Notes under the pieces: generated by a model
Told to the model about the DNA's origin: nothing
The model's database searches: none
The model's input: only the letters and a program-made list of their open reading frames with translations
Translations under genes and position numbers: made by a program
IMG/VR virus record: IMGVR_UViG_3300023235_000087
Span: 1-31,142 of that record
From: a virus
Strand: one strand, 5' to 3'
Length of the DNA stretch: 31,142 nt
Part shown: in pieces, positions 1,454 through 31,142 of the stretch
How positions within the stretch are numbered: position 1 is the first letter of the stretch
How the letters are laid out: each line of letters opens with the position of its first letter

Positions 1454-1463
1454 GTAGTATACT
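1435..1463 (+). promoter_or_regulatory. Rightward promoter of SSB gene
   Basis: TTGCAT (1435-1440), 17 bp, TATACT (1458-1463). It is followed by AGGGGAG, a Shine-Dalgarno-like stretch, at about 10 nt from the ATG at 1481. Its -35 lies within the spacer of the leftward promoter and vice versa, so the two sites cannot be filled by polymerase together. Confidence 0.65.
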
Positions 1464-1480
1464 AGGGGAGCTATGGAAAC

Positions 1481-2026
1481 ATGGCATTAGTAAATAATAA
1501 TAAATATATGTCAGAGAAAAATGACTTCGTAAATTACAAAGAGCAAACACTAACACGTCCACGAGACGCAGCGTGGGGAAACTGGAAAAGCTGGACAGAT
1601 AAAGTAGGGGAAAATGTACAAGGGTACGTTGCCGATGCTTTCTTCCGACCAGAAGAACATCGAGCAGATGGAACATTGTCCTTCCGATCACAACGAGGAC
1701 TTACTATCAAACAAGTTGATGGAGTACTTATTAACGTAGGAGTAAAAGATTTGGCTTTCGTTCTAGCAGCTACAGATAATCTACGAGTAGGAGATCCACT
1801 TACAATTGAACTTACAGAAATCAAAGCACCGGCAGAAAAAGGAATGAATGGAGCAAAGATTTACAGTTACTTCGGTAAGAACCTAGACGAAAACAAAGAT
1901 GCTAAAACTGTTAAAGAATTAACAGATGAAGATCGAGCAGATGGAGGGTCTTCAGCACCGGAAGAAGACACGCTAGAAGCAGTTGCAGAAGATATTAATG
2001 TTGTTGTAGACAATCAAGCGTTCTAA
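1481..2026 (+). CDS. Single-stranded DNA-binding protein (SSB-like)
   Basis: A 181-aa protein with a beta-rich core (about residues 40-130: GENVQGYVADAFF, then SQRGLTIKQVDGVLINVGVK) compatible with an OB fold. An acidic low-complexity C-tail ends in DNQAF, echoing the acidic tail with terminal Phe that lets SSB proteins recruit partners. It probably coats ssDNA during replication and recombination. The gene is monocistronic, with its own promoter (1435-1463) and a terminator (2057-2088), and lies between genes of the opposite strand. Seven of its eight Arg codons are CGA, unlike the small genes to the left, which suggests high expression. The assignment rests on the tail, size and context rather than a diagnostic motif. 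Confidence 0.6.
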   Translation: MALVNNNKYMSEKNDFVNYKEQTLTRPRDAAWGNWKSWTDKVGENVQGYVADAFFRPEEHRADGTLSFRSQRGLTIKQVDGVLINVGVKDLAFVLAATDNLRVGDPLTIELTEIKAPAEKGMNGAKIYSYFGKNLDENKDAKTVKELTDEDRADGGSSAPEEDTLEAVAEDINVVVDNQAF

Positions 2027-2412
2027 CTCAACTTAACTTTCCTAATAGAGATTTCTAAAGCCTCGCTTTCAGTGAGGCTTTTTCTTTTAGAAACATCGTC
2101 TCTGTGAAAGATAAAGTTGTTAATAGGAATTAAATAAAAAGTTTTAGATCCATTATATAGGATCACCACGAAGGCCGGTGCATTGCTGAAACAGAAACAG
2201 TCAAAAGGTTTGTGGCCTGATGATTCGTCACTGATCTTATACACTAATGTTCCATTGGTTGCTGCAAGGAGTGCATGTTCCTGATGCTCAGGTAAGTTCC
2301 TGTATGGGAATGGTCCGGTAGTTTGCTTCAGTTCATAGGCGCCTGTTTTCTTATAGATGTTGCGACACCATGAGTTGAACCTTGCATTGAATTTAGCTTC
2401 TTTCTTCTGCAT
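2023..2412 (-). CDS. RecU-like Holliday junction resolvase / PD-(D/E)XK endonuclease candidate
   Basis: 129 aa. An early GAYELK (E in a beta strand followed by K), HQEHALLAA, YKISDESSGHKPFDCF and a core strand AFVVILYNG resemble small phage RecU/Hjc-type nucleases. In these a glutamate, an aspartate before a hydrophobic strand and a following lysine coordinate metal. The likely role is resolving branched recombination or packaging intermediates. It starts 32 nt after the helicase stop and ends convergently with the SSB gene (4-bp overlap of stops). A TTGCAGTAAACA element resembling the early -35 motif lies upstream, but no well-placed -10 is visible. It could be another type of restriction-fold nuclease. 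Confidence 0.5.
   Translation of the reverse strand: MQKKEAKFNARFNSWCRNIYKKTGAYELKQTTGPFPYRNLPEHQEHALLAATNGTLVYKISDESSGHKPFDCFCFSNAPAFVVILYNGSKTFYLIPINNFIFHRDDVSKRKSLTESEALEISIRKVKLS
2057..2088 (+). terminator. Rightward intrinsic terminator after SSB gene
   Basis: AAAGCCTC (2057-2064) pairs with GAGGCTTT (2074-2081) and is followed by TTTTCTTTT. It lies inside the 3' coding part of the convergent resolvase gene and stops transcription from the SSB gene. In the other direction it lacks a useful U tract. Confidence 0.75.
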
Positions 2413-2443
2413 ATATTGTATATTTATTGTTTACTGCAAAGAT

Positions 2444-3673
2444 TTATACAGAATCACTATATATCCGTTCGCTAAAGTCTTCTTTATTTTTAATAGATTT
2501 GTATACCGCAACGTCAATCTCCCCTGCTAGTAAGTGAATGTATAGATTCTTCTTAATAGCATTAGCTCTCTGTATTCTCCCAATTGCCTGTGTGTAGTTC
2601 ACAATAGAGTAATCTAATGAAGCAAACACCATTACAGGGAAGCTTGGTAGCTCATACCCTGCGCTTACTTGAGACTGCACTACAATTATACAATTATCTG
2701 ATTCTTCTGCATCTTTGATCACTTGCTCTCTGTTCTTAGTAGAACCCTGTAGTGTTAGCACCTTGTAATCTGAAAGCTCTTTTTTGATGTCTGCAATCTG
2801 CTGTGTGAACTTAGCAAAGATAACCATTTTAGGAAACTCTGAAGCAAGTTCTTTTATTATGTCAGTTTTATTGCATTTAAATGCTTCGGTCGCAGAGAAT
2901 TCGTCCCCCTTCAAAACTCCATTCTCTATTTGGTGCCTCTTGCCAGTAAGAACTAATGGATCCGGGAATTCTATTGCAATCTCTCGTAGCCGTTTTTTCT
3001 GTACGTCTGTTGTTCCGACACTGTAGTCCTTGTATATCTGCTCAGGCACATCAAAATAGTCCTCTAGTCTCCCTGTGTATCCTAAAGTTTGTACAGCTTG
3101 CCCTAGTCTTTCTTTCAGTGCGTCCTTCACGATGAAGAATGACCTGTATCCTTTCTTTACTTCAAAATAGAATGTGTCCCTGAACTCATAGAAATTCCAT
3201 TTGACACCCAATAGTTTAGCTAGGCCATATACACACATGGGGTTTCTTATAGGTGTAGCAGTTAGCATATACACGTTCTCAGGCTTCCTTTCAGCAATGT
3301 ATTGTTCCAGCTTCTCATAGATGGCACTAGTCTTTGGTATTGGTCGTTTGTTCTTCCACTTAACGTCAGGCATCACGCCTGCAAGTTGGTGGGCCTCATC
3401 TCCTATAATAGTTTCGTAATATTTACTAGTGTTAAATTTCTTTAGCCGGAAATCCTCTTTAGATATTACATCTACATCTCTATCAATACCACACTTCTCG
3501 AGGTTCTTCTCCCACACACGATCATCTCGTACAGTCTTTGGGCAGATTACAAGTGTCGGTCCTGATGCAAGGTGCAATGCTGTGATTGTCTTACCTGATC
3601 CAGTGCCAAGAAAAAGGCCAGCTCGATGCTTGCCCTCGTCTACGATGTCTTGTTGATGCTTATAGAGTTTCAT
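2444..3673 (-). CDS. SF2 (DEAH) DNA helicase
   Basis: 409 aa, a complete superfamily 2 helicase. Residues 4-8 (YKHQQ) form a Q-like motif. Walker A is GTGSGKT (23-29), motif II DEAH (92-95) and motif III TATP (138-141). The second RecA-like domain has VIFAKFT (284-290) and motif VI QAIGRIQRA (362-370). The family unwinds or remodels DNA using ATP; in phages of this size such helicases usually serve replication-fork or recombination steps. The start at 3673 overlaps the upstream TGA in an ATGA arrangement, supporting coupling. It is transcribed leftward from the promoter at 3920-3948 together with the 80-aa gene and probably the resolvase candidate. No truncation is seen. Confidence 0.9.
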   Translation of the reverse strand: MKLYKHQQDIVDEGKHRAGLFLGTGSGKTITALHLASGPTLVICPKTVRDDRVWEKNLEKCGIDRDVDVISKEDFRLKKFNTSKYYETIIGDEAHQLAGVMPDVKWKNKRPIPKTSAIYEKLEQYIAERKPENVYMLTATPIRNPMCVYGLAKLLGVKWNFYEFRDTFYFEVKKGYRSFFIVKDALKERLGQAVQTLGYTGRLEDYFDVPEQIYKDYSVGTTDVQKKRLREIAIEFPDPLVLTGKRHQIENGVLKGDEFSATEAFKCNKTDIIKELASEFPKMVIFAKFTQQIADIKKELSDYKVLTLQGSTKNREQVIKDAEESDNCIIVVQSQVSAGYELPSFPVMVFASLDYSIVNYTQAIGRIQRANAIKKNLYIHLLAGEIDVAVYKSIKNKEDFSERIYSDSV

Positions 3674-3912
3674 ATTTTTTTATTAGAGAACACCCTGTAA
3701 CTCTTTCCATAATATATAATAAAAAACCAATCGTCTTTTATACGATCTGTTGCCTTTCTCGTTTCATACACAAACCCTAGTACCCAAATGTTCCTAATGT
3801 TTATAGGACACTTTCTCCATCTTAAGTTGTACTTCTTACCGTTGATTTTAATAGTTTCGGTTAGTCCTGCTGGGTGTCTGAATTCGTTGTCGATTGTCCA
3901 GTTTAGTTTCAT
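3670..3912 (-). CDS. Hypothetical protein (80 aa), probably leaderless
   Basis: A basic, aromatic-rich 80-aa protein (RKATDRIKDDWFFIIYYGKSY) that looks beta-rich; no family recognised. It is the first gene of the helicase transcript. The -10 box TATACT ends only 7 nt before its ATG, so the mRNA should start at or within about two nucleotides of the codon. The TGA overlaps the helicase ATG. Possibly a small DNA-binding or helicase-associated factor, by position only. Confidence 0.65.
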   Translation of the reverse strand: MKLNWTIDNEFRHPAGLTETIKINGKKYNLRWRKCPINIRNIWVLGFVYETRKATDRIKDDWFFIIYYGKSYRVFSNKKI

Positions 3913-3919
3913 GTTTAGT

Positions 3920-3948
3920 AGTATAGCAACTAGGTATACTTACGGCAA
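3920..3948 (-). promoter_or_regulatory. Leaderless leftward promoter of helicase operon
   Basis: Minus strand: TTGCCG (3943-3948), 17 bp, TATACT (3920-3925), then 7 nt to the ATG at 3912. The -35 carries the extended form TTGCCGTAAGTA. It is back to back with the primase promoter. Confidence 0.7.
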
Positions 3949-3950
3949 GC

Positions 3951-3980
3951 TTGCACGATTCTGAGCAAACGTGATAGAAT
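3951..3980 (+). promoter_or_regulatory. Leaderless rightward promoter of primase
   Basis: TTGCAC (3951-3956), 18 bp, TAGAAT (3975-3980), then 6 nt to the ATG at 3987. The two opposed -35 boxes sit in the perfect 10-bp palindrome GCAAGCTTGC (3946-3955). Confidence 0.65.
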
Positions 3981-3986
3981 GTATTC

Positions 3987-4916
3987 ATGCAATTTAATAA
4001 AGTATTCGAAGATTGGTTATCAACCAATAAAATAACGGACGGTATTCAACAGGAATTTTCTTTATCTTTCAATGACAACATAGTCATCCCTGTACATGAT
4101 GCTGATGGTACTTTCGTTTTTAATAAGTACAGACGCTCTCCCCTGTCAGATGTAGGCCCTAAATACACTTACGATAAGGGGGGCAAGGTGACACTCTATG
4201 GGTGGTGGAAGGCCAAAACACATAATACAATACTAATTACAGAAGGTGAGAAGGACGCACTCGTGGCATGGTCTCATAACATACCTGCAGTTACTTCTAC
4301 TGGCGGAGCAATGAGCTTCCAAGAAGAATGGGCTGATCTACTTAAAGATAAAGAAGTGATTATCTGTTTTGACAACGATGAAGCAGGAGCTAACGGAATT
4401 GTGAAGGCTCTCCAGTATCTACCAAACGCTAAAGTATTATTGCTTCCGGAAAAAGCAAACATGAAAGACATTTCTGACTATGTTGTATCAGGTGGAGACT
4501 TACATGAACTAATAAAAACTGCGAGAAGTTACACTGGTATTTCTGATGTGTCTGATGATCGAGGGTCTCGTATTGCGCTATTCAAAAGTATTTTCTTTCA
4601 TGAAGCTTACATAAAAGCTCATACAAAAATCGCCCCCAAGAATGCACCATTTAAATCATTTGCCTCTGATGATGTTACTAGAGCCAAAGAGTACCCGATG
4701 ACAAACCTACTTGCTTTCAACAGAAATAAGATAATCTGCCCTTTCCACGCGGGAGGAAAAGAAAAAACACCCTCCTTCAATTATTACCCGGAAACAAATA
4801 CTGCCTACTGCTTCGGCATGTGTGGAAAAGTATTCGATAGTATTGAGGTTTATAAGTCTATGCACAGTTGCTCATTTAAAAAAGCGGTTGAAGAATTAAA
4901 CGATCTACAAATATGA
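3987..4916 (+). CDS. DNA primase with TOPRIM before C-terminal CHC2 zinc finger
   Basis: A 309-aa primase-like protein. Residues 31-70 (VIPVHDADGTFVFNKYRR, then GPKYTYDKGG) match the segment that precedes TOPRIM in DnaG-type primases. TOPRIM motifs follow: EGEKD (86-90), FDNDEAG (128-134) and MKDISDY (159-165). Near the C-terminus C251-P-F-H254, TPSFNYYP, C275 and C279 form a CHC2-type zinc-binding domain. In DnaG this zinc domain is N-terminal, so the order is inverted here. It should make RNA primers for phage replication together with the ATPase encoded next. The gene is expressed from a promoter whose -10 is 6 nt from the ATG. It overlaps the next gene by ATGA. Confidence 0.85.
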   Translation: MQFNKVFEDWLSTNKITDGIQQEFSLSFNDNIVIPVHDADGTFVFNKYRRSPLSDVGPKYTYDKGGKVTLYGWWKAKTHNTILITEGEKDALVAWSHNIPAVTSTGGAMSFQEEWADLLKDKEVIICFDNDEAGANGIVKALQYLPNAKVLLLPEKANMKDISDYVVSGGDLHELIKTARSYTGISDVSDDRGSRIALFKSIFFHEAYIKAHTKIAPKNAPFKSFASDDVTRAKEYPMTNLLAFNRNKIICPFHAGGKEKTPSFNYYPETNTAYCFGMCGKVFDSIEVYKSMHSCSFKKAVEELNDLQI

Positions 4917-6187
4917 AACTAGCAGAACTAAAAAAAGTGATCCAAGAGTATCAGTATTTTGATGACACTAATGTGATAGATGCAACGCTTTCTTCTATTA
5001 TTGCGAATAGATTAAAAATAGGTGATCCGGTATGGCTTATTGTTATAGGAGCTTCTTCTGGAGGAAAGTCACAAATTATTCGTCCCATTACACAATCAGA
5101 TAATGGTTTCATGCACCAAGTAGACGATATGACTGAAAATACTTTCTTGTCAGGAGCAAAGTTAAAAGGAGGAGCTGAAGCATCACTGCTTTTGCGAGAA
5201 GATGGTATCGGAAAGCATGGAATGATCTCTATTTCCGACCTCACAATACTTTTAAGTAAGTCTGGAGACGCAAGAGCTGTTATTATGTCGCAATTCAGAG
5301 CATTATTTGATGGAGAAATGACAAAACACTCCGGAAACATGGAAAAACCTTTACACTGGGAGGGTTATTTGGGAGTTATCGCAGGATCAACACCGTCTGT
5401 CTACACAAAATTTGAAGAGTTCTCTGATTTAGGAGAAAGATTTATTTATTACAGAATGAAAGAGTTCAGCGCAGAAAAAGCCACTAGCCTTGCATTATCT
5501 CGTACATTATATGGTTCAGAGCTTAATGACAAACTATCAGAAGCATATTTACAATACACAAAATCGGTTATACAGACATATAAGGGCAATGATATTGACT
5601 TGACTGTACCTGATGAAGTTAAAGAAAGACTTATAAACATATCAGTATTTGCTGAGACTGTTCGAACTGCTATACAAAAAGATTGGAAAGGGGAGCATAT
5701 TAATAGAATACCTGTTCCTGCGTACCCTATGCGTGTTGCCTTGCAGTTGATTGGTATTACTAAAGCATTTATGCTAATGCAGTTTCATGAGACAGGCTCA
5801 ACTACATTAAGCCAGGATCAATTAAATACACTGGATTGGATCGGCTACTCTCTAGCTAATGAAGAAAAAAGAGCTTGCCTCAAAATATTAGCAAGTGCTA
5901 CTTTTACCTCATCTCTGTCAACTCAAATTGTTGCTGATGAGATTGGACTAGAAACAGAAGTTGTCAACACTTTTTTACAAAATCTTACTGCGGTTGGTAT
6001 TTTAAGTAGAAGTGGTGCTAGCAATTCTCTCGGTTGGTCTTTCAAGAATGAAAATCACTATAACCTTGTTCGTAGAATTGAAACTATTGAAAAGGTTATA
6101 GAGTATGATGAAAGAGAACTTACAAATGAAGAGTCTAGTATGATTGAAATGGCATCTGAAGAATCTTTCCGTAAATTAGATTTTTAG
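4913..6187 (+). CDS. P-loop ATPase, probable replicative helicase/AAA+ partner of primase
   Basis: 424 aa. Walker A is GASSGGKS (46-53). A Walker B-like strand MISISD (104-109) lies near a conserved SQFRALFDGE. GVIAGSTP (154-161) could be sensor I, and LGERFIYYR (174-182) offers an arginine finger. Residues about 315-375 (ATFTSSLSTQIVADEIGLETEVVNTFLQNL) look like a winged helix. This layout fits a hexameric AAA+ ATPase loading or moving on DNA, and coupling to the primase by a 4-bp ATGA overlap suggests a primase-helicase pair. I cannot place it in DnaB, SF3 or an initiator family. It ends convergently with the HTH gene (12-bp overlap). Confidence 0.7.
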   Translation: MKLAELKKVIQEYQYFDDTNVIDATLSSIIANRLKIGDPVWLIVIGASSGGKSQIIRPITQSDNGFMHQVDDMTENTFLSGAKLKGGAEASLLLREDGIGKHGMISISDLTILLSKSGDARAVIMSQFRALFDGEMTKHSGNMEKPLHWEGYLGVIAGSTPSVYTKFEEFSDLGERFIYYRMKEFSAEKATSLALSRTLYGSELNDKLSEAYLQYTKSVIQTYKGNDIDLTVPDEVKERLINISVFAETVRTAIQKDWKGEHINRIPVPAYPMRVALQLIGITKAFMLMQFHETGSTTLSQDQLNTLDWIGYSLANEEKRACLKILASATFTSSLSTQIVADEIGLETEVVNTFLQNLTAVGILSRSGASNSLGWSFKNENHYNLVRRIETIEKVIEYDERELTNEESSMIEMASEESFRKLDF

Positions 6188-6373
6188 TCTCGGCCTTCCT
6201 CTGCCCTTGTGGAATTTTATTTCGTAACCTTTACTTCTTAGTATTTCTACCCAGCGCATTATCGTTGATCGTGATTTTCCTGTCATCTCTGCAACTTGCG
6301 AGGCCTCTAGCCCATGATCATTAATCAGTGGAATTATTTCACTGATTTTTTCTATTTCTATGTTTTTTAGCAT
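6176..6373 (-). CDS. Small HTH DNA-binding protein with AT-hook-like tail
   Basis: 65 aa. Residues about 20-48 (HGLEASQVAEMTGKSRSTIM, then RWVEIL) form a helix-turn-helix of the kind found in repressors, resolvases and terminase small subunits. The tail HKGRGRPRLKI contains GRGRPR, an AT-hook core that binds the minor groove. It is probably a transcriptional regulator acting on phage DNA. It is the last gene of the leftward accessory block. A 21-bp dyad at 6415-6435 lies about 40 nt before its start codon and is a candidate operator. No ribosome-binding site is seen. Confidence 0.7.
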   Translation of the reverse strand: MLKNIEIEKISEIIPLINDHGLEASQVAEMTGKSRSTIMRWVEILRSKGYEIKFHKGRGRPRLKI

Positions 6374-6388
6374 GTGTTTTTTGTTTAG

Positions 6389-6451
6389 TTGACAATTCTG
6401 TTCTTATTTGTTACCCTGTACCTATTAGGCACAGGTGATAACTAAAGTATA
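6389..6451. promoter_or_regulatory. 21-bp dyad between opposing promoter elements
   Basis: Plus strand: TTGACA (6389-6394), 17 bp, TACCCT (6412-6417). Overlapping it is the dyad CCTGTACCTATTAGGCACAGG (6415-6435 with one symmetrical mismatch pair). On the minus strand TATACT (6446-6451) lies just upstream, but no good -35 goes with it. A repressor bound here could block both directions. Rightward RNA would be antisense to the accessory genes. Confidence 0.4.
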
Positions 6452-6468
6452 TTTTTCTTTTATTGCAT

Positions 6469-6603
6469 TTATTTCTCTGCAATCTGCGCTTCGTTTATTC
6501 GTGTTTGATAAGCTCCCTGTGTTTTTTTCTTTTTATTTATACAAACGCATTTATCCAGTATGGTTAAGCGCTCGCAGTCCTTGCATTTTCGTACTTTTTC
6601 CAT
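6469..6603 (-). CDS. Small cysteine-rich zinc-binding-like protein (44 aa)
   Basis: ATG at 6603, TAA at 6469-6471. The sequence holds CKDC and then CVC (Cys 7, 10, 19, 21), a treble-clef-like or zinc-ribbon spacing, followed by a lysine stretch and a polar tail. It starts 5 nt after the stop of the upstream gene, so it belongs to the same leftward transcript. A hydrophobic frame on the opposite strand covers the same bases but looks like its mirror. Function unknown; small zinc proteins in this position in phages often target host factors, which is only a possibility here. Confidence 0.55.
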   Translation of the reverse strand: MEKVRKCKDCERLTILDKCVCINKKKKTQGAYQTRINEAQIAEK

Positions 6604-6608
6604 ATTAT

Positions 6609-6752
6609 TTATTCTCGTAGTGTTAGTTCTCGCTCGATCTCTAGTAATAACCCTAGTTTGTCTGTGATACGTCCATTTGTACCCTTCTCAATGTCCGCTG
6701 TAAGCTCCTCACGCTGTTGCAATAGCTGTTCGTCTGTTTGGTCTGTGTCCAT
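6609..6752 (-). CDS. Small helical hypothetical protein (47 aa)
   Basis: A 47-aa, Gln/Glu/Leu-rich, probably two-helix protein (DEQLLQQREELTADIEKG). Longer starts at 6803 or 6785 are possible in frame but overlap the upstream gene. The ATG at 6752 follows that gene's TAA by a single T, the standard junction in this genome. Function unknown. Confidence 0.5.
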   Translation of the reverse strand: MDTDQTDEQLLQQREELTADIEKGTNGRITDKLGLLLEIERELTLRE

Positions 6753-6753
6753 A

Positions 6754-6960
6754 TTAGTTACATTTACTATTAAGGTTTTCTTCAACATATTTCTCCACTT
6801 CATTCAATTCTTCAGGGCTAACAGGTTTTTCGCTCTCTATCTGTAGCAAGTTGCCGTTTATTGTGTCTACTTTGTAGCTGTAAATACTTGTATGTTCGTT
6901 GTTTTTTACAGTGATATTGTAGTAAAAGATTGTGTGGACTATTTCGTGGTTGATATTCAT
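6754..6960 (-). CDS. Hypothetical protein (68 aa)
   Basis: The N-terminal half alternates hydrophobic and polar residues (HTIFYYNITVKNN, then TSIYSYKVDTI), suggesting a small beta sheet. The C-terminal half (SPEELNEVEKYVEENLNS) is an acidic helix. It starts one T after the upstream TAA. No family recognised. Confidence 0.6.
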   Translation of the reverse strand: MNINHEIVHTIFYYNITVKNNEHTSIYSYKVDTINGNLLQIESEKPVSPEELNEVEKYVEENLNSKCN

Positions 6961-10944: not shown

Positions 10945-12465
10945 ATGAATAAGATACAGGCTAAGAAGTTGAAGGAGATTAGCGACATGACGACACAGGA
11001 GCGGAAGTATTTGTTATCTAAACCGGATAACTTTGGGTATTTCTTTACGTATTATTTTGTTGATTATGTGAATTATCCTTTTGCTGATTTTCATTATGAT
11101 ATGTTTAGTGACGCATCGGACTTAATTACTGGTGATATTAGAGAGGTGGCATGGATTATGTTTAGAGAGAGTGCGAAAAGTTCTATTGCTAAAGGGCTGT
11201 GTACTTTCCTTGCTGCAACTGCATCTAGGAATTACGTGAATGTTGATAGTTATAGTAAGGAGAATGCGGAGCGTATTTTATTTGATGTTGTTTTAGAATT
11301 TCAGACAAACAAGAAACTGATCCAGGATTTTGGGCAACTGTACAACGCACAGAAGCAGAGGAATCAGGAGGTGACGCAGAAACGTATTAGTAACTTTATT
11401 ACTAATAATGGTGTTCGTGTTGAGGCTCATTCTACACAGGAACCAGTGCGTGGGCGATTATCACGTCAATATCGTCCGGATTTCGTTATCTTGGATGATT
11501 TTGAGACTGATAAGACTGTTGTTAGTGAGGCTGTTACGAAGAGTATTCGAAACCACATTCAGGAGTTTCAAGGAGGTCTAGCCTCTAATGCTAGTGTTCT
11601 CTATCTTGGTAACTATATCTCTGAGTATTGTAATATCCAATGGTTGATTGACAAGGCGAAGGTGGATGATGGTATGAGGGTGAGGAATATGCCCGTTATG
11701 ATGGATGGTAAACCTACATGGCCGGGGAAGTATGTTCTGTTGGATTCTGACGTAGATAAGAGCATCCTAAACCCTAAGGTTTCTATTGAGACAATACGCA
11801 AAAGGTTATCATCCCCAGATGAGGGGGATCGGAGGTTCCAGTCAGAGATGATGAATCAACCTGTGGATTACGCTAATCAGATTTTCCAGAGAGAGATGTT
11901 CCAGTCTATATCTTGGGAGGATGTGAAACGGATGTCTACTTCATGCTATGTGACTATTGATACTGCTGTATCTCAGGAGCAGAAGGCTGATTTTACTGGT
12001 ATTACTATTAATTGGGTTAATGAACAGGGGATGTGGCATTTTAAATCATACAAAGCGAAAATCACACCGACAGAGGTGGTGGATTTGATATTTGGATTAC
12101 AGCAACAGTATAAGCCTGAGAAGATCGGTATTGAGAAGGGTATGTATACAAGTGTTATTAAACCTTTCTTACAGGAGGAGATGAGGAAGAGAAATATCTA
12201 TCCTTATATAGTGGAGGTGGACCATCAGAACAAAAAGAAGGAATCCAGGATCGAATGGTTGCTACCAAGGTACGAAAGTAACAGTATTTGGCACATTGAA
12301 GGGGAATGTAGTGACTTAGAGTCTGAATTATTGCGTCATCCGGCAAATGTGCATGATGATGTGGCTGATTCTGCGTGTATGCAGACACAAATTGCACAAA
12401 GAAGGTACTCAGAGGGGCTTGAAGAGCTAGAAGAGGACCCAATGTATTCAGAAATCGGCATATAA
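10945..12465 (+). CDS. Terminase large subunit
   Basis: A 506-aa packaging motor. The N-terminal ATPase has an atypical Walker A, FRESAKSS (73-80), lacking the usual glycines but keeping the K-S pair, and Walker B VILDD (181-185). The C-terminal RNase H-like nuclease has D339 in TIDTA, E397 in GIEKG and the HDDVADS acidic cluster (470-476). It cuts concatemeric DNA and pumps it through the portal. Length and domain order are normal. It starts one T after the upstream TAG with no ribosome-binding site. Codons are more T-ending than those of the capsid gene. Confidence 0.92.
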   Translation: MNKIQAKKLKEISDMTTQERKYLLSKPDNFGYFFTYYFVDYVNYPFADFHYDMFSDASDLITGDIREVAWIMFRESAKSSIAKGLCTFLAATASRNYVNVDSYSKENAERILFDVVLEFQTNKKLIQDFGQLYNAQKQRNQEVTQKRISNFITNNGVRVEAHSTQEPVRGRLSRQYRPDFVILDDFETDKTVVSEAVTKSIRNHIQEFQGGLASNASVLYLGNYISEYCNIQWLIDKAKVDDGMRVRNMPVMMDGKPTWPGKYVLLDSDVDKSILNPKVSIETIRKRLSSPDEGDRRFQSEMMNQPVDYANQIFQREMFQSISWEDVKRMSTSCYVTIDTAVSQEQKADFTGITINWVNEQGMWHFKSYKAKITPTEVVDLIFGLQQQYKPEKIGIEKGMYTSVIKPFLQEEMRKRNIYPYIVEVDHQNKKKESRIEWLLPRYESNSIWHIEGECSDLESELLRHPANVHDDVADSACMQTQIAQRRYSEGLEELEEDPMYSEIGI

Positions 12466-12930: not shown

Positions 12931-14913
12931 ATGATAAGTAAAACAACTAGAGATAAAATAAAAGCCCAAGCCCAGTTTGAAATCGACTTTTCCCGAAAAC
13001 ATAAGCAGGGGAAAATATTTACATGGCAGAAGAATGAAGACCAGTATTATGCTGTGAAGACTAAGAGTGATGGCTCAAGAGCCAATGTAGAACTTGCGCG
13101 TATGCAGGAGTTTGTTAATACTCTGCTATCTAAGATTGATGCGGCACTGAAATTTACCTTTACTAAGAGGAAGGACGCACAAAGACAGAGGGTGGACAGG
13201 TTGAACTCTTTAAGAGAGTTTGATGCGAACAGGGATAACTGGGATCTGAAGGATCTTGTTGGAAAGAAACAATGTATTCTTTATGGACGAGCTATCTATG
13301 CTTATTCTGCTGATTCACACATGGGATATACACCGCATCTAGACAATGTGGATGTTTATGATTTCTTGGTTGATCCTTCTGGGGGAGGAATTGATTTGGA
13401 GAACGCGATGTTCATGGGGCGATATGGCGTTGTAAAGACTAAGAAGGACCTACAGGACAACAAGAATATGTATATTGCATCTGAAGTTAATGATTTGCTA
13501 CGAGGTGACGGTAACTCAGGCGAGACTACACAGGAGGAGACTAATAAAGAGAATCGAACATCTCTACAGAGAGTTGGTGATTCTGATAAGGAGATTGGTG
13601 ATCCTCAGAAATATAAGTTCTGGGAGTGGTATACAACATATGAAGGGGAGCGATACTACTTACTTCTATGTGAGCAGGGATCTAAAGCTATTAAGGTGGA
13701 GAAGCTTAAGGATGTATTTGCAAATGACATGTGGCCGTTCTGGACATATGCAGCATTTATGGATCTTACAGAGTTCTGGACTCCTTCACACGCTGACTAT
13801 GTTAGAGAAATCTTCATGGCACAGTCTGTGAACATCAATCAAATGCTTGATAATGCAGAGCAAATTAATAAACCACAAAAGATTGTTGATGTTACAGCAT
13901 TAGAGAACCTGGCTGACGTTAAGTATAAAAGAGGTGGTGGTGTGATTAGAACTAAGGGTGGTGTGGATGCACAGAAGGCTATCCAGTTCGTTCAGACTCC
14001 TTCTATCAATACACCAATACAGGTGTTTGATGTACTGGAAGCTATCCAGGAGAAAGCACTTGGTGTTACAGCCGGTGATAAGGGAGTAGCGGATCCAGAT
14101 GGAAAAGCTACTATTTACGAAGGAAACCAGGCTAATACAGCAAATAGATATGGTCTATTGAATAAATCATACGCATTCGGATATAGAAGATTTTCTGCTC
14201 TGTACGAGAATGGTGCGCGAGAACACTTGGTTAAGGCAGTAGCTGTGGACATTCTTGGTCCGGATGGAGTTGATGTTGTTATGATTAAAGGGAGTGATAT
14301 CTTCAAGAAGAATGATAAGTTTGGGATTATCGTTGAGGCTACAGACGCAGAGGCTCAGTTAGATCTTGCCAAGAAACGACAGAAAAATAATTTTCTTCAA
14401 GCTCAGATTCAAAACCCTGCGATTAATCAGACAAAGCTAACAGAGATGTCAGGTTTGATTGCTGGATTTTCTGATGAACAAATGAGAGAATTACTAGATG
14501 TATCTGATTTTGGAGATGCTAAATTAATGTCAGATGCGGAGAGGGATATTGAGAGAATCCTTGAGGGAGAAGATTTCCTACCTAATATGCGCGCTAATGC
14601 AGCATATAAGCAAAGATTTGTGGATTACTTCATTGATCATGAGGAAGACTTCAAACCAGAAACATTCTCAAGATTTACTCAATATATTGAGAGTCTGAAC
14701 CCTATTATCATCGCAAACACTGTTCGAGACTTAGAAGCAGAACAGTTGAAGGTACAGGCTGAACAGATGGCACTTGCTACAGATCCTAATGGAATGGTGC
14801 GAGGAGGTGACAATCCTTTGGATGGGGGGAATGGGAGCGCTCCACGTCCAAGACGGCAGATAGAGGAAACTCCTAGAGAAATTACAAGTAATAATATAAA
14901 TGGGAATGGATAA
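12931..14913 (+). CDS. Portal protein
   Basis: 660 aa, the size of podovirus-type portals. The first 250 residues carry an alpha/beta wing with YSADSHMGYTPHLDNVDVYD and FLVDPSGGG. Residues about 290-330 (REIFMAQSVNINQMLDNAEQ, then INKPQKIVDV) look like the stem and clip. The last 70 residues are low-complexity Gly/Pro/Asn. It forms the dodecameric channel at one capsid vertex through which terminase loads DNA. Position directly after terminase supports the call. The end overlaps the next gene by a few bases. Confidence 0.85.
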   Translation: MISKTTRDKIKAQAQFEIDFSRKHKQGKIFTWQKNEDQYYAVKTKSDGSRANVELARMQEFVNTLLSKIDAALKFTFTKRKDAQRQRVDRLNSLREFDANRDNWDLKDLVGKKQCILYGRAIYAYSADSHMGYTPHLDNVDVYDFLVDPSGGGIDLENAMFMGRYGVVKTKKDLQDNKNMYIASEVNDLLRGDGNSGETTQEETNKENRTSLQRVGDSDKEIGDPQKYKFWEWYTTYEGERYYLLLCEQGSKAIKVEKLKDVFANDMWPFWTYAAFMDLTEFWTPSHADYVREIFMAQSVNINQMLDNAEQINKPQKIVDVTALENLADVKYKRGGGVIRTKGGVDAQKAIQFVQTPSINTPIQVFDVLEAIQEKALGVTAGDKGVADPDGKATIYEGNQANTANRYGLLNKSYAFGYRRFSALYENGAREHLVKAVAVDILGPDGVDVVMIKGSDIFKKNDKFGIIVEATDAEAQLDLAKKRQKNNFLQAQIQNPAINQTKLTEMSGLIAGFSDEQMRELLDVSDFGDAKLMSDAERDIERILEGEDFLPNMRANAAYKQRFVDYFIDHEEDFKPETFSRFTQYIESLNPIIIANTVRDLEAEQLKVQAEQMALATDPNGMVRGGDNPLDGGNGSAPRPRRQIEETPREITSNNINGNG

Positions 14914-17815: not shown

Positions 17816-18553
17816 ATGCAAATTACAAAACAATGCTTCACTTGTGAGGTTGAACATACACCAGAACACACAGCACTTAAACGCAATAAAAACTTCTTTT
17901 GCTCTAAGGAGTGTTACTGGAAATCTATACGCGGAGTCAAATTATCGAAAGAACATGCACAAAAGATTTCTGATGGACAGAGGGGTCGGGTGTCACCTAT
18001 GAAAGGAAAACACTTTAATCATAAAGATGCGACGAAAAGAAAGATTAGTATTGCCAATAAGGGCAAGATTCGCGCTCGAGGTAAATATGCTAATAATTGG
18101 AGGGGAGGAGTTACTTCCCAGAAGGATATCTGCCTAAAGTGTGGTCTTGAATATATAGGAATTGTAAATCGGAAGTTTTGTTCTAAGAAGTGTGCATTGC
18201 AATCTTCCCAGAGAACTGAGTCGATTATTAAGACAGGAAAGATTAATGGTAATATTTATACCGACCCTATAGACAGGATTATAGCGACTAAGTTTAGTGA
18301 CTATAGGAATGGTGCGAATAAACGAAACAAATCATTCGATATCAGTAAAGAACAATTTTCGGTTTTAACAAAAAAAGATTGTACTTATTGTGGGGATGAA
18401 TGTGCTATGGGTGTCGATAGGCTAGATTCAAAGATTGGGTATACTGTCGAGAACTCTGTACCCTGTTGCAAGCGCTGTAATTATGCAAAACACATTATGG
18501 ACCTCGATGAATTTAAGGTTCATATTGCTAAAATTTTTAATCATTTAATATAA
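17816..18553 (+). CDS. Free-standing HNH-type homing endonuclease
   Basis: 245 aa with a modular layout. N-terminal Cys pairs (CFTC at 7-10, CSKEC) are followed by a NUMOD3-like DNA-binding stretch (KLSKEHAQKISDGQRGR; GKHFNHKDATKRKISIANKG). A second CxxC finger (CLKCG, CSKKC) precedes a C-terminal nuclease CTYCGDE...GVDRLDSKIGYTVENSV, ending PCCKRCNYAKH. This nuclease form, with D-R-x-D and GYT-x-EN, is common in phage HNH homing enzymes, which cut a genome lacking the gene so that repair copies it in. It has moved in between the capsid and adaptor genes and has no structural role. Codon use is more AT-rich and less CGA-biased than the capsid gene. Confidence 0.85.
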   Translation: MQITKQCFTCEVEHTPEHTALKRNKNFFCSKECYWKSIRGVKLSKEHAQKISDGQRGRVSPMKGKHFNHKDATKRKISIANKGKIRARGKYANNWRGGVTSQKDICLKCGLEYIGIVNRKFCSKKCALQSSQRTESIIKTGKINGNIYTDPIDRIIATKFSDYRNGANKRNKSFDISKEQFSVLTKKDCTYCGDECAMGVDRLDSKIGYTVENSVPCCKRCNYAKHIMDLDEFKVHIAKIFNHLI

Positions 18554-18561: not shown

Positions 18562-19167
18562 ATGATGGGTGCCTCAACAATCGCAGACTTTGAACTCTTT
18601 ATGGACGACGGTACAGAACTGTCTACTACTGAGGAGTATCGACTATATAATAAAATCTATCACGAGGTATGTGATTCAAAGGACTGGGAATTTTTAAGGA
18701 AGGAATTTACTGGAACTTTAACAAGTGATTACGTTTTATTACCAGACGACTTTTCTCATGTGTTGATGAATCATAATGATGATAGATATGCTAATACTCC
18801 TGTTGTATATGTTGGTGCAAATCGTCAGCCGTATAAAATAATTTCTAAAGCTGATCGGTCTAACTATACTGATCAAGATGGTTTTTGCTTCGTTGATTTA
18901 AAGAATAGTAAAATAATCTTTACAAAGACTCCCACATCAACTGCAGTAGTGTTTGATTATCAGTTTGTTCCAGATGATGTAACTGAATCTACCGAACCAG
19001 TTATTCCTTCAAGGTTTGTTCCTGTAATTTATCATGGCATGTGTGCGGATGACTTTATCATTCAGCAATCTGATAAGGCTAAGTCTTATAGGAATCAAAA
19101 TGTTGCTCGATATAAGGATTACCATGATTCCCTGACAATGTGGAATAGTAAATTCGCTTCACTCTAA
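18562..19167 (+). CDS. Head-tail adaptor protein
   Basis: 201 aa with an N-terminal helical bundle (TEEYRLYNKIYHEVCDSKDW), a central beta region with YVLLPDDF, and a C-terminal helical part (VPVIYHGMCADDFIIQQSDK). It resembles adaptor proteins of short-tailed phages (the T7 gp11 or P22 gp4 role) that bind the portal ring and hold the tail nozzle. Placement between the capsid gene and the nozzle gene supports this. Starts ATG-ATG; the exact first Met is undecided. It ends one T before the nozzle ATG. Confidence 0.65.
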   Translation: MMGASTIADFELFMDDGTELSTTEEYRLYNKIYHEVCDSKDWEFLRKEFTGTLTSDYVLLPDDFSHVLMNHNDDRYANTPVVYVGANRQPYKIISKADRSNYTDQDGFCFVDLKNSKIIFTKTPTSTAVVFDYQFVPDDVTESTEPVIPSRFVPVIYHGMCADDFIIQQSDKAKSYRNQNVARYKDYHDSLTMWNSKFASL

Positions 19168-23856: not shown

Positions 23857-26800
23857 ATGTCAGCACTAGATCTTATTAAAAAAAATAAAGGTCTATCTGG
23901 GGGTACTACAAGCCAGTCTGGATCAGGTAGCGCTCTTGATAGAATAAAAGCGGCGAAAAGCGCTAGTTCTTTACATATTAAGGCTTCTGCCCCAACTAAA
24001 TCTATTCCGAAGAAGATACCTACTTTTACTCCCGCGTCTGTAGAGGAGAGTCCTAAACCTTTTTCTGGATTTCTGAGTAAGGGGTTAAATTTCATTGACC
24101 GTCTTACAGATAGACCTGAGCAGGATGAACTTTCAACTAATAGATTTAAAAATACATTAAAGTACTTTCCTTCAACTTTAACAGAAACAGTCTTACCTGG
24201 CGTTAGGGCTATTCGTGATGACGAGGCTACTGCTTCTCAAATTAAGATGAAAGATATTGCAAGAGAGACACCGGGGGCTGTTCTTGAGACTGCGAAAGCT
24301 ATTCCAAAAGCTTTGATTAAGGGAGCTGTTGAAATTCCTAACTTTGCTACCGCTGGAGCTTTTCAACCTGAGATTAAGTTTAATGTTCCATTACTTGGGG
24401 AGGTGACTAATAGTGATTACAATATTTCGCAACGTATTGCGCAGGGTGAAGACCCAACATCAACAGTGATTGGGGAAAAGAGTACGGCATTACTTGATAT
24501 GTTGTTTTTTGCTAGTCTTGCGAGTAGAACTGTAACCCCTAGACCAAAGACTATTGCCACTACACAAGCACAGTCTGGAGGATTGCCATCTGGAGCTAAA
24601 ATACCTGCAACGCATAAGAATTTTAGACTATCCGGGCCACCAAAAACTACAAGTAAAACAGTCCCACCTTCTGTTATGGAAAATTTAGTTAAAAGTGGAG
24701 CAAAGGTAAAGTCATACAATCCTAAGAATCCTATTGTCTTTCAGATGACAACTGTGAAAGGCGTACCTACAGCTAAGTTAATTGAGATTAGGCCTTCTTA
24801 TTTTAATCTCTTAAAAACGAAATTAGCTTCTGGTAAGCCTGTTCCTGAATCATATGGGAATGTCATCCACGAGAGTACAAGAAGTATTACACAAATTAAG
24901 AACACTGTTGCTCAACAGAAGCCTATTACTACAGCACCTGCTGTTTTGCCAAAATCATCTAAACCCGACTTAACTTTTGTTCAAAAGAGTGCAGCGGTTG
25001 ATGAATTTAATGCAACTGATGTTGCTCCAGAATTGACCCGGAGTCAGCAAATGAAACTAGATCTTTTGCAAGACACAAAAATTCCTGGACAAAATGCCCT
25101 TGATGAAGCGATTCGTGCTGAGGACGCTAAGGATGCTCCGCCTAACTTTACTTCCAAAAAACAACCTCTCAAGAAGGTGTTTCTCCCCACCAAAAGGCTT
25201 AGTCCTGAAGAACAGGCTAGTTATGCTGAATGGAAGGTTAATGAGAACCTTTCACGTTTAGATGCACAAGATATATTTGAACATTTTAAATCACCAACAT
25301 CTCCTGTTGTAGAGGATCTTTACGCGTACCAACGAGGAGTTCGTGATGGTAGAACAAATGCAATACAGAAGCAATTTGATGAACTATTTAAGACTGCCGC
25401 TGAAGATGGTCTTAATGTTGCATATAAGGAAAACTATCTGCCACAGATATATAAACAAACACCAGAGGCTGTTGTTGAGGCGGTTAAAAAATACCTAATA
25501 GAAAAAGGAACTGATCCTCAGTTGGTTGAGGAATATGTTGCAGGTAGAGCGAATTTGTCAGAGAAGGCTTCTGTTTCCTTGAGAATGTCGCCGAACTTCA
25601 CACAGTCTGCAGCATTCCCTAGTTATGCTGTTGCTAAGAAATATGGATTGGATCCTAAATATAATGATATTGCACAGTTGCTTGCATATTATAAAGGGGA
25701 GCTTGGGAAGACTCGTGGCAATAAGAAGTTCTTAGAGCAACTTATCCGACAAGGACGTGTTAAGACTTCAGATAATGCCCCCCAGGGTTGGAAGGAAATA
25801 AACATCTCTGCTCGTGGAGAAAGATTCTATGCTTCAAAGGACTTGGCACCGATTCTAAATGGTCAATTCAGAGATATGGCTGATCTTGGGCTAGGAGAAA
25901 AGATTGCTCATCGCGCAGCTCAGTTATCTAAGGGTGTGCAAGAGGTAAAACTATCTGCCGGACTTCCAGGTACTAGCTTTAACGTCTTCACCGTTGGTCA
26001 AATGATTAAGGGTATGACCTCTGGAGATCTCCGAGGACCCGTTGGTTCATTCATCCGTTCTAATAGTAATAAGGTTTCACGACAGTACTTCAAAGACCAT
26101 GCTGACGTTATTAGAGAGATGGCAGAGAACGGTATTGATTTAGGGAAAATGGTTGGTGGATATAAAGACACTTATCAAACACTTATACAATCTGCTAAAG
26201 ATGGGAAACGATTAGGTCTATTCTCAGAAGGTTTCGGTAAGGTTTTCAATGAGAAGACTTTCAACTCTTTCATGCCACAGATGATTATCGAATCATATAT
26301 GAAAACAAAGTCTGGTCTTGTGAAAGGGTCAATCCTTAAGGGACGTAAAAATGCCATGCATGAGAAAGAAGCACAGAAACTCGCCGCAGAGACTACTAAA
26401 ACTTTCATGGGGTTGATTAAAGACGTGGGACGATCTGGACTAACACATGACATCATGGCTGGTACTTTGTTTGCACCTCGATTCCGAGAGGGTATTGTGA
26501 ACACTGTTGTAAACGCTGTTAAAGGTTCTACCACAGAGTTTAAAAACCCTGCCTTCTCTAAATCTCGTAAGTTTATGTTTGGTGTGATTTTGACATACTT
26601 CCTTGCTAACCTTTTGAACAAGGAGCTGAACGGTCATTATATGTACGAGAACCCACAGTGGAAGAAGACCGCTGTACAAATTCCTAAACCTTCTGGCGAT
26701 GGCGCTGCGTTTGTTGCTTGGATGCCCACTTTCACAGGTTTCCCTAAGGCTATTCTGTCCGGTGTTGGTAATATCGCAGTAGGTAATGTGTCTGAAGGGC

Positions 26801-27903
26801 TTCAGAGCCTAAAGATGGCATTGTCTATGCCTGTATCAATCGCTGGTGAACTTTCAACCAATAAGAACTTCTTTGGAAATCCTATCTGGGATGAAGATGC
26901 TACAAAAGGTGAGAAGACAAAACAAATCCTGTTCTACCTGAATGATTCTGTTAATCATCCTTTTGCTGCAGAGCCTATCAGAATGTTGGATGAGCGTGAC
27001 AATACTACTTTAGATAACTCAATTGCTAAGATGCTTGAGCTTCCAGCTAGTTTCAAGACACAAAAGGCTCTTGATGACGCTGAATACTACAGACTCTTAG
27101 AAGAGAAGATGGATGAAAAAGTAAAGCAGGAATCAAAGATGAAGAAACTCTTCAAGAAGAACAAGAAGGGGACTTCTGAGGAGGCGCAAGCGAGCGTTGA
27201 TGATCTTACTGACGATCAGTATAAGATTTACAAGGAAACTGTGGCGGCTGACAATTTCCGAAAGGAAGATAAGCTTGTGCAAGAGATGTACTCTGTTCTT
27301 GTAAAGAACCAGAAGGGGAGCAGTGAGGATGCTCAGGAGGTGGTAGATGCTCTTTCTGATGAAGAATATACAGCTTACCAAGCTGCCATAAAGATTCAGA
27401 AGAGAGATGATTCTGCAAAGGAGGGGAAAATCATGGGATATGACTATGGTGAGATGGACTACGAGAAGAATGTTATCAAGCGTGTTTGGTTATACGCTCA
27501 TGCGTTTGGTATTGATCCAGAACAAGCATGGAAAGGAATGACCGGCAACGAGAACATCGAGAAAGTTGAAGGTAATATGGTGATGTTCTACCGAATGCCA
27601 AGATCTAGGTCAGAGCAAGAGGCTTATAGGCAACTTGAGGAAATGGGAACTGCTCCTTATTTCCGAAGTGAATACCGACTAGATCACACAATCTCAAGGG
27701 AATTGGGAGGAGATAACTCTCCAGAGAACCTTAGATTGGTACCAAAGCACGTTTGGGCTATGTACACAGCATTTGAGAATGCTTTGAGTGCGAAACTAAG
27801 AGCAGGTAAAGTAACACGTAAAAAAGCGGGTGTCTTGATTACTGCATTTAAGGATAGGGAGTACACAGCAGATGAATTCACTGACATCATTGACAACTTA
27901 TAG
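23857..27903 (+). CDS. Giant virion/ejection protein with C-terminal HNH domain
   Basis: 1348 aa. The first 250 residues are Lys/Pro/Ser-rich. The centre (about 460-760) has YKENYLPQIYKQTPEAV, FPSYAVAKKYGLDPKYNDIA and KLSAGLPGTSFNVFTVGQ, a pattern I associate with large polyvalent or internal virion proteins of short-tailed phages. A hydrophobic stretch FMFGVILTYFLANLL (around 908-922) could cross a membrane. A 49-residue tandem repeat follows (KNKKGTSEEAQ about 1102-1112 and KNQKGSSEDAQ about 1150-1160). The end holds D1276-H1277 with GGDN and SPEN-L, an HNH nuclease motif. It is likely packaged and ejected into the host. Confidence 0.6.
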   Translation: MSALDLIKKNKGLSGGTTSQSGSGSALDRIKAAKSASSLHIKASAPTKSIPKKIPTFTPASVEESPKPFSGFLSKGLNFIDRLTDRPEQDELSTNRFKNTLKYFPSTLTETVLPGVRAIRDDEATASQIKMKDIARETPGAVLETAKAIPKALIKGAVEIPNFATAGAFQPEIKFNVPLLGEVTNSDYNISQRIAQGEDPTSTVIGEKSTALLDMLFFASLASRTVTPRPKTIATTQAQSGGLPSGAKIPATHKNFRLSGPPKTTSKTVPPSVMENLVKSGAKVKSYNPKNPIVFQMTTVKGVPTAKLIEIRPSYFNLLKTKLASGKPVPESYGNVIHESTRSITQIKNTVAQQKPITTAPAVLPKSSKPDLTFVQKSAAVDEFNATDVAPELTRSQQMKLDLLQDTKIPGQNALDEAIRAEDAKDAPPNFTSKKQPLKKVFLPTKRLSPEEQASYAEWKVNENLSRLDAQDIFEHFKSPTSPVVEDLYAYQRGVRDGRTNAIQKQFDELFKTAAEDGLNVAYKENYLPQIYKQTPEAVVEAVKKYLIEKGTDPQLVEEYVAGRANLSEKASVSLRMSPNFTQSAAFPSYAVAKKYGLDPKYNDIAQLLAYYKGELGKTRGNKKFLEQLIRQGRVKTSDNAPQGWKEINISARGERFYASKDLAPILNGQFRDMADLGLGEKIAHRAAQLSKGVQEVKLSAGLPGTSFNVFTVGQMIKGMTSGDLRGPVGSFIRSNSNKVSRQYFKDHADVIREMAENGIDLGKMVGGYKDTYQTLIQSAKDGKRLGLFSEGFGKVFNEKTFNSFMPQMIIESYMKTKSGLVKGSILKGRKNAMHEKEAQKLAAETTKTFMGLIKDVGRSGLTHDIMAGTLFAPRFREGIVNTVVNAVKGSTTEFKNPAFSKSRKFMFGVILTYFLANLLNKELNGHYMYENPQWKKTAVQIPKPSGDGAAFVAWMPTFTGFPKAILSGVGNIAVGNVSEGLQSLKMALSMPVSIAGELSTNKNFFGNPIWDEDATKGEKTKQILFYLNDSVNHPFAAEPIRMLDERDNTTLDNSIAKMLELPASFKTQKALDDAEYYRLLEEKMDEKVKQESKMKKLFKKNKKGTSEEAQASVDDLTDDQYKIYKETVAADNFRKEDKLVQEMYSVLVKNQKGSSEDAQEVVDALSDEEYTAYQAAIKIQKRDDSAKEGKIMGYDYGEMDYEKNVIKRVWLYAHAFGIDPEQAWKGMTGNENIEKVEGNMVMFYRMPRSRSEQEAYRQLEEMGTAPYFRSEYRLDHTISRELGGDNSPENLRLVPKHVWAMYTAFENALSAKLRAGKVTRKKAGVLITAFKDREYTADEFTDIIDNL

Positions 27904-27918: not shown

Positions 27919-29823
27919 ATGGACGACTTAATATTCCAATCTAGCGAAAAAAATAACAAAGAACTACAGAGTCTTGGTACTCAGATGGACATGCTGCTTC
28001 AGGCTATAACTAAAACTACAGATGGTAAAGATCTGGGTATAGAGTTAGTTAAAGGAAAGCCTGGTGAACCTGGAAAGGAAGCTGTTGTTGACTATGACAA
28101 GATCATTAAAGCTACTGTTAAGCAGATCCCTAAGCCTATTCCAGGAAAACCTGGTGACGATGCTGATGAGGTGGACTATGACAAGATAGCTAGATTTATC
28201 ACTAAAGAGGTTAAAAAGATCAAGATACCTGTACCAAAGCATGGTAAGGATGGTAAAAATGCCATTGTTGATTACAAAAATATTGTTATTGATTACAAGA
28301 AGATCATTAAAGGTGTTGTTGAAGAAATACCTGATGTTGTTATAGAAACCCCTAAAGAACTGAAGAAAAAAATTGAGAAGATTGGAATAGACTACGAATC
28401 TCTTGAAAACCTTCCAGACATTGACGAATGGATGAGTCAACTTGGTCGTAGAGTAGCATCAAAGACATATGATATTGAAGATATTCCAGGACTTCAGGAT
28501 GCTTTGGACAACGCAGGGGGTGGCTCTTCAAAATTTATAGACCTTACTGACACTCCAAGTGCGTATGTTTCTAACGCAATGAAGGCTTTACGTGTAAATG
28601 TAGGAGAGACAGACTTAGAGTTCTACACACCTACAGATGCTAATGATGCAGCAATTTGGGGGAATGTGACTGGAACACTATCAGCCCAAACTGATTTACA
28701 AAGTGAATTGGATGGTAAGGCTGACTCTTTAGGAGTAGATGATAACTACGTTACAGATGCAGAAAAAATTGTCATTGGGAACACTTCAGGAACAAACACA
28801 GGAGACCAAGACATCTCAAACTTTGAGACAACAACAGAGCTTAATGCACGAGATACTGATAACAGAGCAAGAGCCAACCATACAGGAACACAGGCAGCTT
28901 CAACTATTAGTGATTTTGATACAGAGGTAGCAAACAACACAGCGGTTACAGCTAACACAGCTAAAGTAACTAACGCTACACATACAGGACAGGTAACAGG
29001 CTCAGGGGCTTTGACAGTCGATGTAACAGCTATTTCAGACCAAACCCTAGTAACTGCGGTTGCAACAGATATGCTCCTTATAGAGGACGCTACAGACGGT
29101 GCATTAAAACGAGTAGATGCTTCTGACTTCTTAGCAGGAGCAGGAACAGTCACAAGTGTTGCTGTATCAGGAAACGATGGAATTGAAGTAGACAGTGGTT
29201 CACCAATTACATCAGCAGGAACAATTGAGCTTGGACTTAACAAAGTAAGTACACTTGCTTTTCTTAATGTAGAAGATGGAGCTGACGTTACAGACTCTAC
29301 TAATGTAACTGCTGCAGGGGCTTTGATGGATTCAGAGCTTGCGAGTATTGCAGATGTTAAGGCACTAAACCAAAGTGTTGTAACAACAGCATCTCCACAG
29401 TTTGCAGGAGTAAATGTAGGACACGCTACTGATACAACTATTTCACGTTCAGCAGCAGGAGTAATCGCAGTTGAGGGAGTAAGAATACTAACAACTACAC
29501 CAGTCACGCTTGCGGCAGCTTCATACACAACAGACACAGGTACATCTCTTAACATGGATAACCTTGATAATTTTGTAGTTACTGCACAAGCAGGAGCATT
29601 ATTGTTTAACGCTCCTGGAGGAACACTTGTACAAGGTCGAAAACTAACTGTAAGGATTAAAGATAACGGTACAGCACGAGCATTAACTTGGAACGCTATT
29701 TACAGAGCTATGGGAGTTGCATTACCTTCTACCACAGTAGAGTCTAAGACGTTATATCTTGGATTTATCTATAACAGTACTGATACTAAATGGGACTTAG
29801 TAGCTAGCGCCCAAGAGGCATAA
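27919..29823 (+). CDS. Collagen-like tail fibre
   Basis: 634 aa. After a short helical start, residues 45-145 contain three units of a collagen-like Gly-X-Y patch followed by VDYDKI or VDYKNI and a Lys-rich helix (GKPGEPGKEA; GKPGDDADEVDYDKI; GKDGKNAIVDYKNI). The middle is Thr/Ala/Asp-rich beta with fibre hallmarks (VTDAEKIVIGNTSGTNTGDQ; RANHTGTQ). The last 100 residues form a compact C-terminal domain (LTVRIKDNGTARALTWNAIY). It is likely a trimeric receptor-binding fibre. Its 3' half is rich in ACA, GCA and CGA codons. Confidence 0.75.
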   Translation: MDDLIFQSSEKNNKELQSLGTQMDMLLQAITKTTDGKDLGIELVKGKPGEPGKEAVVDYDKIIKATVKQIPKPIPGKPGDDADEVDYDKIARFITKEVKKIKIPVPKHGKDGKNAIVDYKNIVIDYKKIIKGVVEEIPDVVIETPKELKKKIEKIGIDYESLENLPDIDEWMSQLGRRVASKTYDIEDIPGLQDALDNAGGGSSKFIDLTDTPSAYVSNAMKALRVNVGETDLEFYTPTDANDAAIWGNVTGTLSAQTDLQSELDGKADSLGVDDNYVTDAEKIVIGNTSGTNTGDQDISNFETTTELNARDTDNRARANHTGTQAASTISDFDTEVANNTAVTANTAKVTNATHTGQVTGSGALTVDVTAISDQTLVTAVATDMLLIEDATDGALKRVDASDFLAGAGTVTSVAVSGNDGIEVDSGSPITSAGTIELGLNKVSTLAFLNVEDGADVTDSTNVTAAGALMDSELASIADVKALNQSVVTTASPQFAGVNVGHATDTTISRSAAGVIAVEGVRILTTTPVTLAAASYTTDTGTSLNMDNLDNFVVTAQAGALLFNAPGGTLVQGRKLTVRIKDNGTARALTWNAIYRAMGVALPSTTVESKTLYLGFIYNSTDTKWDLVASAQEA

Positions 29824-30932: not shown

Positions 30933-31142
30933 ATGAAATTCAACGTACACTACGGTAAAGGAATAATCTCAAGACTAATACGCTTTTTCTCGCAAGGAGA
31001 GTTTAACCATACTTCCATAGAGATAGGAGGCAATGTATACGAAGCACGTGCACATCTTCCTTCATGGTTAGCTAGGTTCTTAAATAAGTTTCTAGCCTTT
31101 AAATGTTTCAAAGAGTACGGAGTTATCAAAACACCTGTACAT
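30933..31142 (+). CDS. Possible papain-like/NlpC-P60-like enzyme, cut by right edge
   Basis: Seventy codons are visible. GKGIISRLIRFFSQGEFNHT, IEIGGNVYEARAH and a later KTPVH resemble the permuted NlpC/P60 (YiiX/LRAT-like) fold. There a His in a strand after 'FNHTSIEI' and an E-A-R segment precede the catalytic Cys. Such proteins hydrolyse peptide or lipid bonds and in phages may act in lysis or entry. The catalytic Cys would lie beyond the window, so activity cannot be judged. It starts one T after the upstream TAA. Confidence 0.45.
   Translation, partial: MKFNVHYGKGIISRLIRFFSQGEFNHTSIEIGGNVYEARAHLPSWLARFLNKFLAFKCFKEYGVIKTPVH

Follow-up and report, generated by a model that had tools for sequence, protein, structure and literature searches.

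The described systems closest to the protein considered here are the phage-type polyvalent proteins (Iyer et al. 2017, PMC5512222), the LPD38-bearing members of which include the DarB-like virion protein of JC1/Bcep22; mass spectrometry has detected JC1 gp69, itself an LPD38 protein, in virions. The main text of PMC5512222 mentions HNH only for GmrSD. The MuF polymorphic toxins of temperate phages (PMC12226406) join a structural N-terminal part to a variable C-terminal effector on the phage particle, and the T7 gp16 and PhiM1 ejectosome proteins are thought to be ejected before the DNA, their known enzymatic domains cutting peptidoglycan (PMC11440229). None of the papers searched describes an HNH tail on ejection proteins. 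We describe here a 1348-aa phage protein that ends in such an HNH-type tail, together with relatives that carry the same tail on other bodies.

The stretch of DNA analysed (the window) is the linear virus record IMGVR_UViG_3300023235_000087, 31,142 bases in length. Its plus strand carries, in order, genes for the terminase large subunit (10945..12465; phrog_38, E 5.8e-58), an SU10-type portal (12931..14913; PF23899, E 1.7e-20), a likely capsid protein (start 16517, assigned by position only), a NUMOD3 and EndoVII/HNH-like protein (17816-18553) and an SU10-type adaptor (18562..19167; PF24175, E 2e-6). Downstream of the adaptor follow, on the same strand, 609-, 480- and 409-aa proteins, the 1348-aa protein, predicted from its open reading frame and full-length relative to be an ejection-type virion protein (whole ORF, 23857..27903), a 634-aa protein that is fibre-like by position and composition only and has no Pfam match (27919..29823), and a Gly-rich protein. 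This layout is that of a short-tailed, podovirus-like phage, and the 1348-aa gene occupies the usual place of very large ejection proteins, as in the gene orders of PhiM1, T7 and JC1. Copies of the portal gene that are 100% identical occur on two short IMG/VR contigs from other samples (3300025601, 3300025425), and the virus of the window therefore recurs. Elsewhere in the window, in a primase-like protein (3987-4916) the Toprim match (residues 80-165) comes first and the CHC2 zinc-ribbon match (250-306) second, opposite to what is usual in DnaG, and an ORF cut by the window end (30933-31142) has a start (HYGKGIISRLIRFFSQGEFNHTSIEIGG) that resembles a papain-like amidase by eye, with no Pfam match for its 70 aa.

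For the whole 1348-aa protein, searches against Pfam, PHROG, PDB sequences and phages (tblastn) returned nothing, and an AF2 model of the body (pLDDT 41) was too poor and was left unused. Relatives were more informative. A full-length homologue, L036, aligns with window residues 435-1343 over 941 columns at 35% identity (E 3e-160), and two further proteins, L043 and L044, share the window's body at 23% (E 1e-16) and lack the HNH tail; the body common to all of them comprises residues 435-1092 (25159..27132, plus strand). A profile of the window, L036 and L044 bodies matched a 12-protein LPD38-family profile at E 1.5e-5 over residues ~819-1033 (hhalign; 26311..26955, plus strand), a segment that includes a hydrophobic stretch at 906-924, and reversed and column-shuffled control profiles gave E 0.09 or higher. 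The LPD38 family model itself, PF18857, has no match in the window in a Pfam search; it is matched at 7e-19 in L012, a protein with the same tail as the window, directly upstream of that tail, and single-sequence hhalign found no LPD38 in the bodies of L035, L038 and L039. On these profile comparisons, the window body is distantly LPD38-like. SU10-type adaptors are encoded in the window and on the contigs of L035, L038, L039 and L044, and the LPD38-like body, the PF18857 match of L012 and these adaptors together make a virion-delivered protein likely by analogy.

Phage-type polyvalent proteins combine at least two disparate effector domains in a single polypeptide; within the 1348-aa protein the HNH tail is the only effector domain recognised. 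L036 additionally carries phrog_2579 ('ParB C-terminal domain') in its N-terminal part (residues 347-516, 2e-22), as expected for multi-effector proteins. By eye, this region of L036 has an ADP-ribosyltransferase-like look.

Between body and tail stands the 49-residue tandem repeat that the first-pass annotation had placed before the HNH motif, and it is indeed present, in two copies only. At the DNA level it appears as 67 nt at 72% identity with 147-nt spacing, and at the protein level as a period of 49 aa across residues 1094-1191, with 16/49 positions identical over the whole unit and the best stretch (1094-1129 against 1143-1178) reaching 15/36; its BLOSUM score is 82, and the maximum in 500 shuffles was 41. 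Both copies, residues 1094-1142 (27136..27282) and 1143-1191 (27283..27429) on the plus strand, are predicted to be helical, the AF2 model having helices here at low confidence, and L036 contains a comparable doubled unit with 53-aa spacing. We read the pair as a probable helical linker joining body to tail.

The motif letters and numbering of the same annotation (D1276, H1277, G1284, G1285, D1286, N1287, E1290, N1291) are right, and the domain exceeds the motif: it spans ~145 aa (residues 1198-1342; 27448..27882, plus strand), in which a conserved N-terminal helical/beta-hairpin part lies upstream of the HNH core (residues 1272-1315; 27670..27801, plus strand). Against single library models, the window sequence gave only scores short of the cut-off (Pfam HNH, E 0.08-0.15; phrog_333 HNH, E 0.026), and NCBIfam and PADLOC gave weak matches only (IscB, 0.0038; IetA, 0.012). 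When the ORFs of the window were searched with a leave-one-out profile built from the tails of five relatives, residues 1198-1342 matched at E 1e-33 and none of 2000 shuffles gave a match; HNH PHROG families were matched by five of six tail members (best 1.8e-5). The AF2 tail model, poor as a whole (mean pLDDT 60), places strands at 1273-1277 and 1292-1296 and a helix at 1297-1315 with pLDDT 74-92 (199-203, 218-222 and 223-241 in model numbering). In Foldseek against BFVD, phage HNHc proteins rank first (prob 0.99-1.00, E 3e-3 to 2e-2); against the PDB, TasH, Gme HNH and Cas9 HNH are among the first rows, none with E below 0.3. The leave-one-out profile, the strand-strand-helix order of the model, the Foldseek ranking and the HNH PHROG matches together identify the tail as an HNH-type domain. 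Several other matches were set aside: the best VIA-align rows (ribosomal proteins, designed helices) had Z 6.2 or less and were not taken as meaningful, a match in L007 was a chance occurrence of MGYDYGEM in a portal protein, and most matches of a 65-aa scan (L013-L019) were ordinary small HNH-like proteins with only GGDNSPEN in common.

The weak scores of single library models would also suit a chance motif or a mis-assembled fusion. An assembly accident is unlikely, since a second contig, IMGVR_UViG_3300005913_000106, assembled from another metagenome, agrees without a difference along 17,280 bases, and the leave-one-out match and 15 other natural fusions likewise speak against this explanation; we consider it refuted by the relatives, its remaining probability being negligible.

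The features of an HNH core are largely in place, with an Asp-His pair ending the first strand, an Asn just before the second, and two strands followed by a helix. Among 15 aligned tails, Asp1276, Asn1287, Asn1291, the GG pair and Arg1246 are invariant, His1277 at the catalytic position is kept in 14, and E1307, seven residues past W1300, is Glu or Asp in every one. The third HNH position, nine residues after the NL asparagine, is Trp in 13/15 (W1300 in the window), a count biased upward by the last scan, one of whose two patterns contained the Trp motif; L038 has His there and L012 Lys. Since the usual third residue, His or Asn, is thus replaced by W1300, we classify the tail, on alignment and model, as an HNH-type fold and not as a canonical HNH nuclease. 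The exception at His1277 is L056 (ORF 85-6861), whose tail (residues 2119-2258) has a natural D-Y for D-H with the remaining tail conserved. The first-pass annotation had proposed an ejection-type protein with an HNH nuclease; the HNH fold, the large ejection-type protein and its place in the structural module of a podovirus-like genome hold up, and the prevalent Trp and the Tyr-for-His member speak against a simple active nuclease.

These substitutions bring forward a serious rival, in which the fold has little or no catalytic activity and instead binds DNA or acts as a docking module, for instance to hold the genome end or the ejection machine in the virion. It would account for the Trp in place of the third ligand and for the natural H-to-Y member, and it fits a tail found on a structural-type protein with a fixed C-terminal position in 12/15. 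However, tails of about 30-50% overall identity still retain the D (15/15), the H (14/15) and the N (15/15), a DH pair is not obviously needed for pure docking, and L038 has retained a His at the third position. We judge this account somewhat unlikely. A working site without a third ligand may be possible, as the related Serratia nuclease has one direct protein metal ligand and a water-bridged Glu; we treat this precedent as a lead.

Stepwise searches of IMG/VR yielded L012 as the first relative (BLASTP E 5e-9), then L035 and L036, then L038 and L039, and then ten further contigs (L064 and L058 being L039 and L035 again). Counting the window, the tail is found on 16 proteins of 705-2467 aa, 15 of them on other IMG/VR contigs. 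It ends at most 15 residues from the C-terminus in 12 of 15 complete proteins; in L012, L038 and L062 it is followed by 180-290 further residues. In L062 these (residues 2176-2467) are about 290 basic, Gly/Ser/Lys-rich residues. The bodies sort into six or seven groups, between which BLASTP finds similarity in tail and linker only, and the tails of L035 and L039 are 52% identical over 169 residues, their bodies being without detectable similarity. The simplest account is a C-terminal module that has been gained, lost or exchanged repeatedly; alternatively, the bodies may have diverged past the reach of BLASTP and the tail been better conserved. From these comparisons we regard the tail as a mobile module on podovirus ejection-type proteins. 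Its bacterial relatives are 240-aa secreted-looking proteins from two actinobacterial MAGs (L032, L033) and a Deinococcus plasmid protein (L008), which have DHIISLELGGSN..NL and KDxLENxL in common with it; the helix pattern of the tail is therefore common to cellular HNH-like proteins.

The distribution of the tail bears on two other explanations. One is that a nuclease nicks or trims the phage's own DNA during packaging or entry, in the manner of the HNH proteins beside the terminase in some cos phages. Phage HNH proteins with packaging roles are known, and the 1348-aa protein would sit near the genome. However, the tail is on a large late protein and not on the terminase or portal, and L044, a podovirus relative with the same type of body, is without it, so that the tail is dispensable for the job of the body; we hold a role on the phage's own DNA to be improbable. 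The other is that a selfish, homing-type endonuclease has become fused to a structural gene. The window does contain a separate gene that is probably a homing endonuclease, the NUMOD3 and EndoVII/HNH-like gene between the likely capsid and adaptor genes, which is unrelated to the tail domain. In contrast to that gene, the tail has no NUMOD match, is an in-frame C-terminal part of the 1348-aa protein with no independent ORF, and retains, on many bodies, a conserved ~145-aa arrangement that includes a separate upstream subdomain; a homing origin for it seems very improbable.

Our preferred reading, which we hold at about even odds judging from sequence and by analogy, is that this is a polyvalent-type virion protein whose LPD38-like body delivers an HNH nuclease into the cell. 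In such a protein, the two helical repeat units would link the LPD38-like body to the ~145-aa HNH tail. At infection the protein would leave the particle before the genome or together with it, bringing the tail into the cytoplasm or to the inner face of the membrane, where the tail would cut DNA as a metal-dependent endonuclease. H1277 would act as general base and D1276 as metal ligand, N1291 would shape the active site, and water and/or E1307 may stand in for the missing third ligand. As target, non-phage DNA in the entered cell would be likeliest, whether host chromosome, plasmid or rival phage; a point against this reading is that the tested early genes of the window gave no methylase match that would account for the sparing of the phage's own DNA. 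The idea, proposed earlier, of a cargo delivered with phage DNA is supported by a modular tail on different bodies, an LPD38-like body and an LPD38 protein proven in virions elsewhere. We also put forward, as a tentative possibility, that the Trp-substituted tails form a distinct HNH-derived family (DHTIPLQLGGxN...NLxLVxxxxWxxYTxxEN), which a wide group of uncultivated podoviruses would share as the exchangeable C-terminal effector of their ejection proteins and would inject into the cell as a nuclease of a new type, its metal chemistry altered.

If the tail is active, a virion-delivered DNA-cutting domain would be common to many unrelated-looking ejection proteins, and one could then test whether podoviruses turn on host or rival DNA already at entry and not after early gene expression. 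If it is inactive, the ejection machine would have taken over a nuclease fold for handling DNA. In either case, the Trp conserved at the third HNH position raises a specific question of how the chemistry of this fold works.

Compared with described nucleases, the tail shares its DH(x)nGG(x)nNL core and beta-beta-alpha arrangement with the HNH domains of Cas9/IscB, with Gme HNH and with the bacterial proteins L008, L032 and L033, the last three also having its KDxLENxL helix pattern. In contrast, the carrier proteins differ, and the Cas9 HNH has Asn at NL+9 in the compared sequence where the tail has Trp. The T7 gp16 and PhiM1 ejectosome proteins (PMC11440229) resemble the 1348-aa protein as very large podovirus proteins encoded near the end of the structural module, but the recognisable domain in the window is nuclease-type, and no sequence similarity was found. 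The likeness to MuF toxins (PMC12226406) lies, by analogy, in a structural N-terminal part with a C-terminal effector; unlike the variable effectors there, the tail is conserved and not polymorphic, the Pfam search of the whole 1348-aa protein matched no MuF domain at the N-terminus, and an unsystematic search found no immunity gene beside the 1348-aa gene. The phage-type polyvalent proteins (PMC5512222) offer the nearest parallel. As in these, a large multidomain late protein, here of 1348 aa, is encoded with virion genes, in the terminase-portal-adaptor module, and has an LPD38-like segment, an enzyme-like extra domain and, by analogy, an expected injection. It differs from them in that its effector is an HNH tail and that PF18857 does not match its body. 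The protein is therefore of a known kind, that of polyvalent-type ejection proteins, and what is new is the recurrent Trp-substituted HNH tail that they carry.
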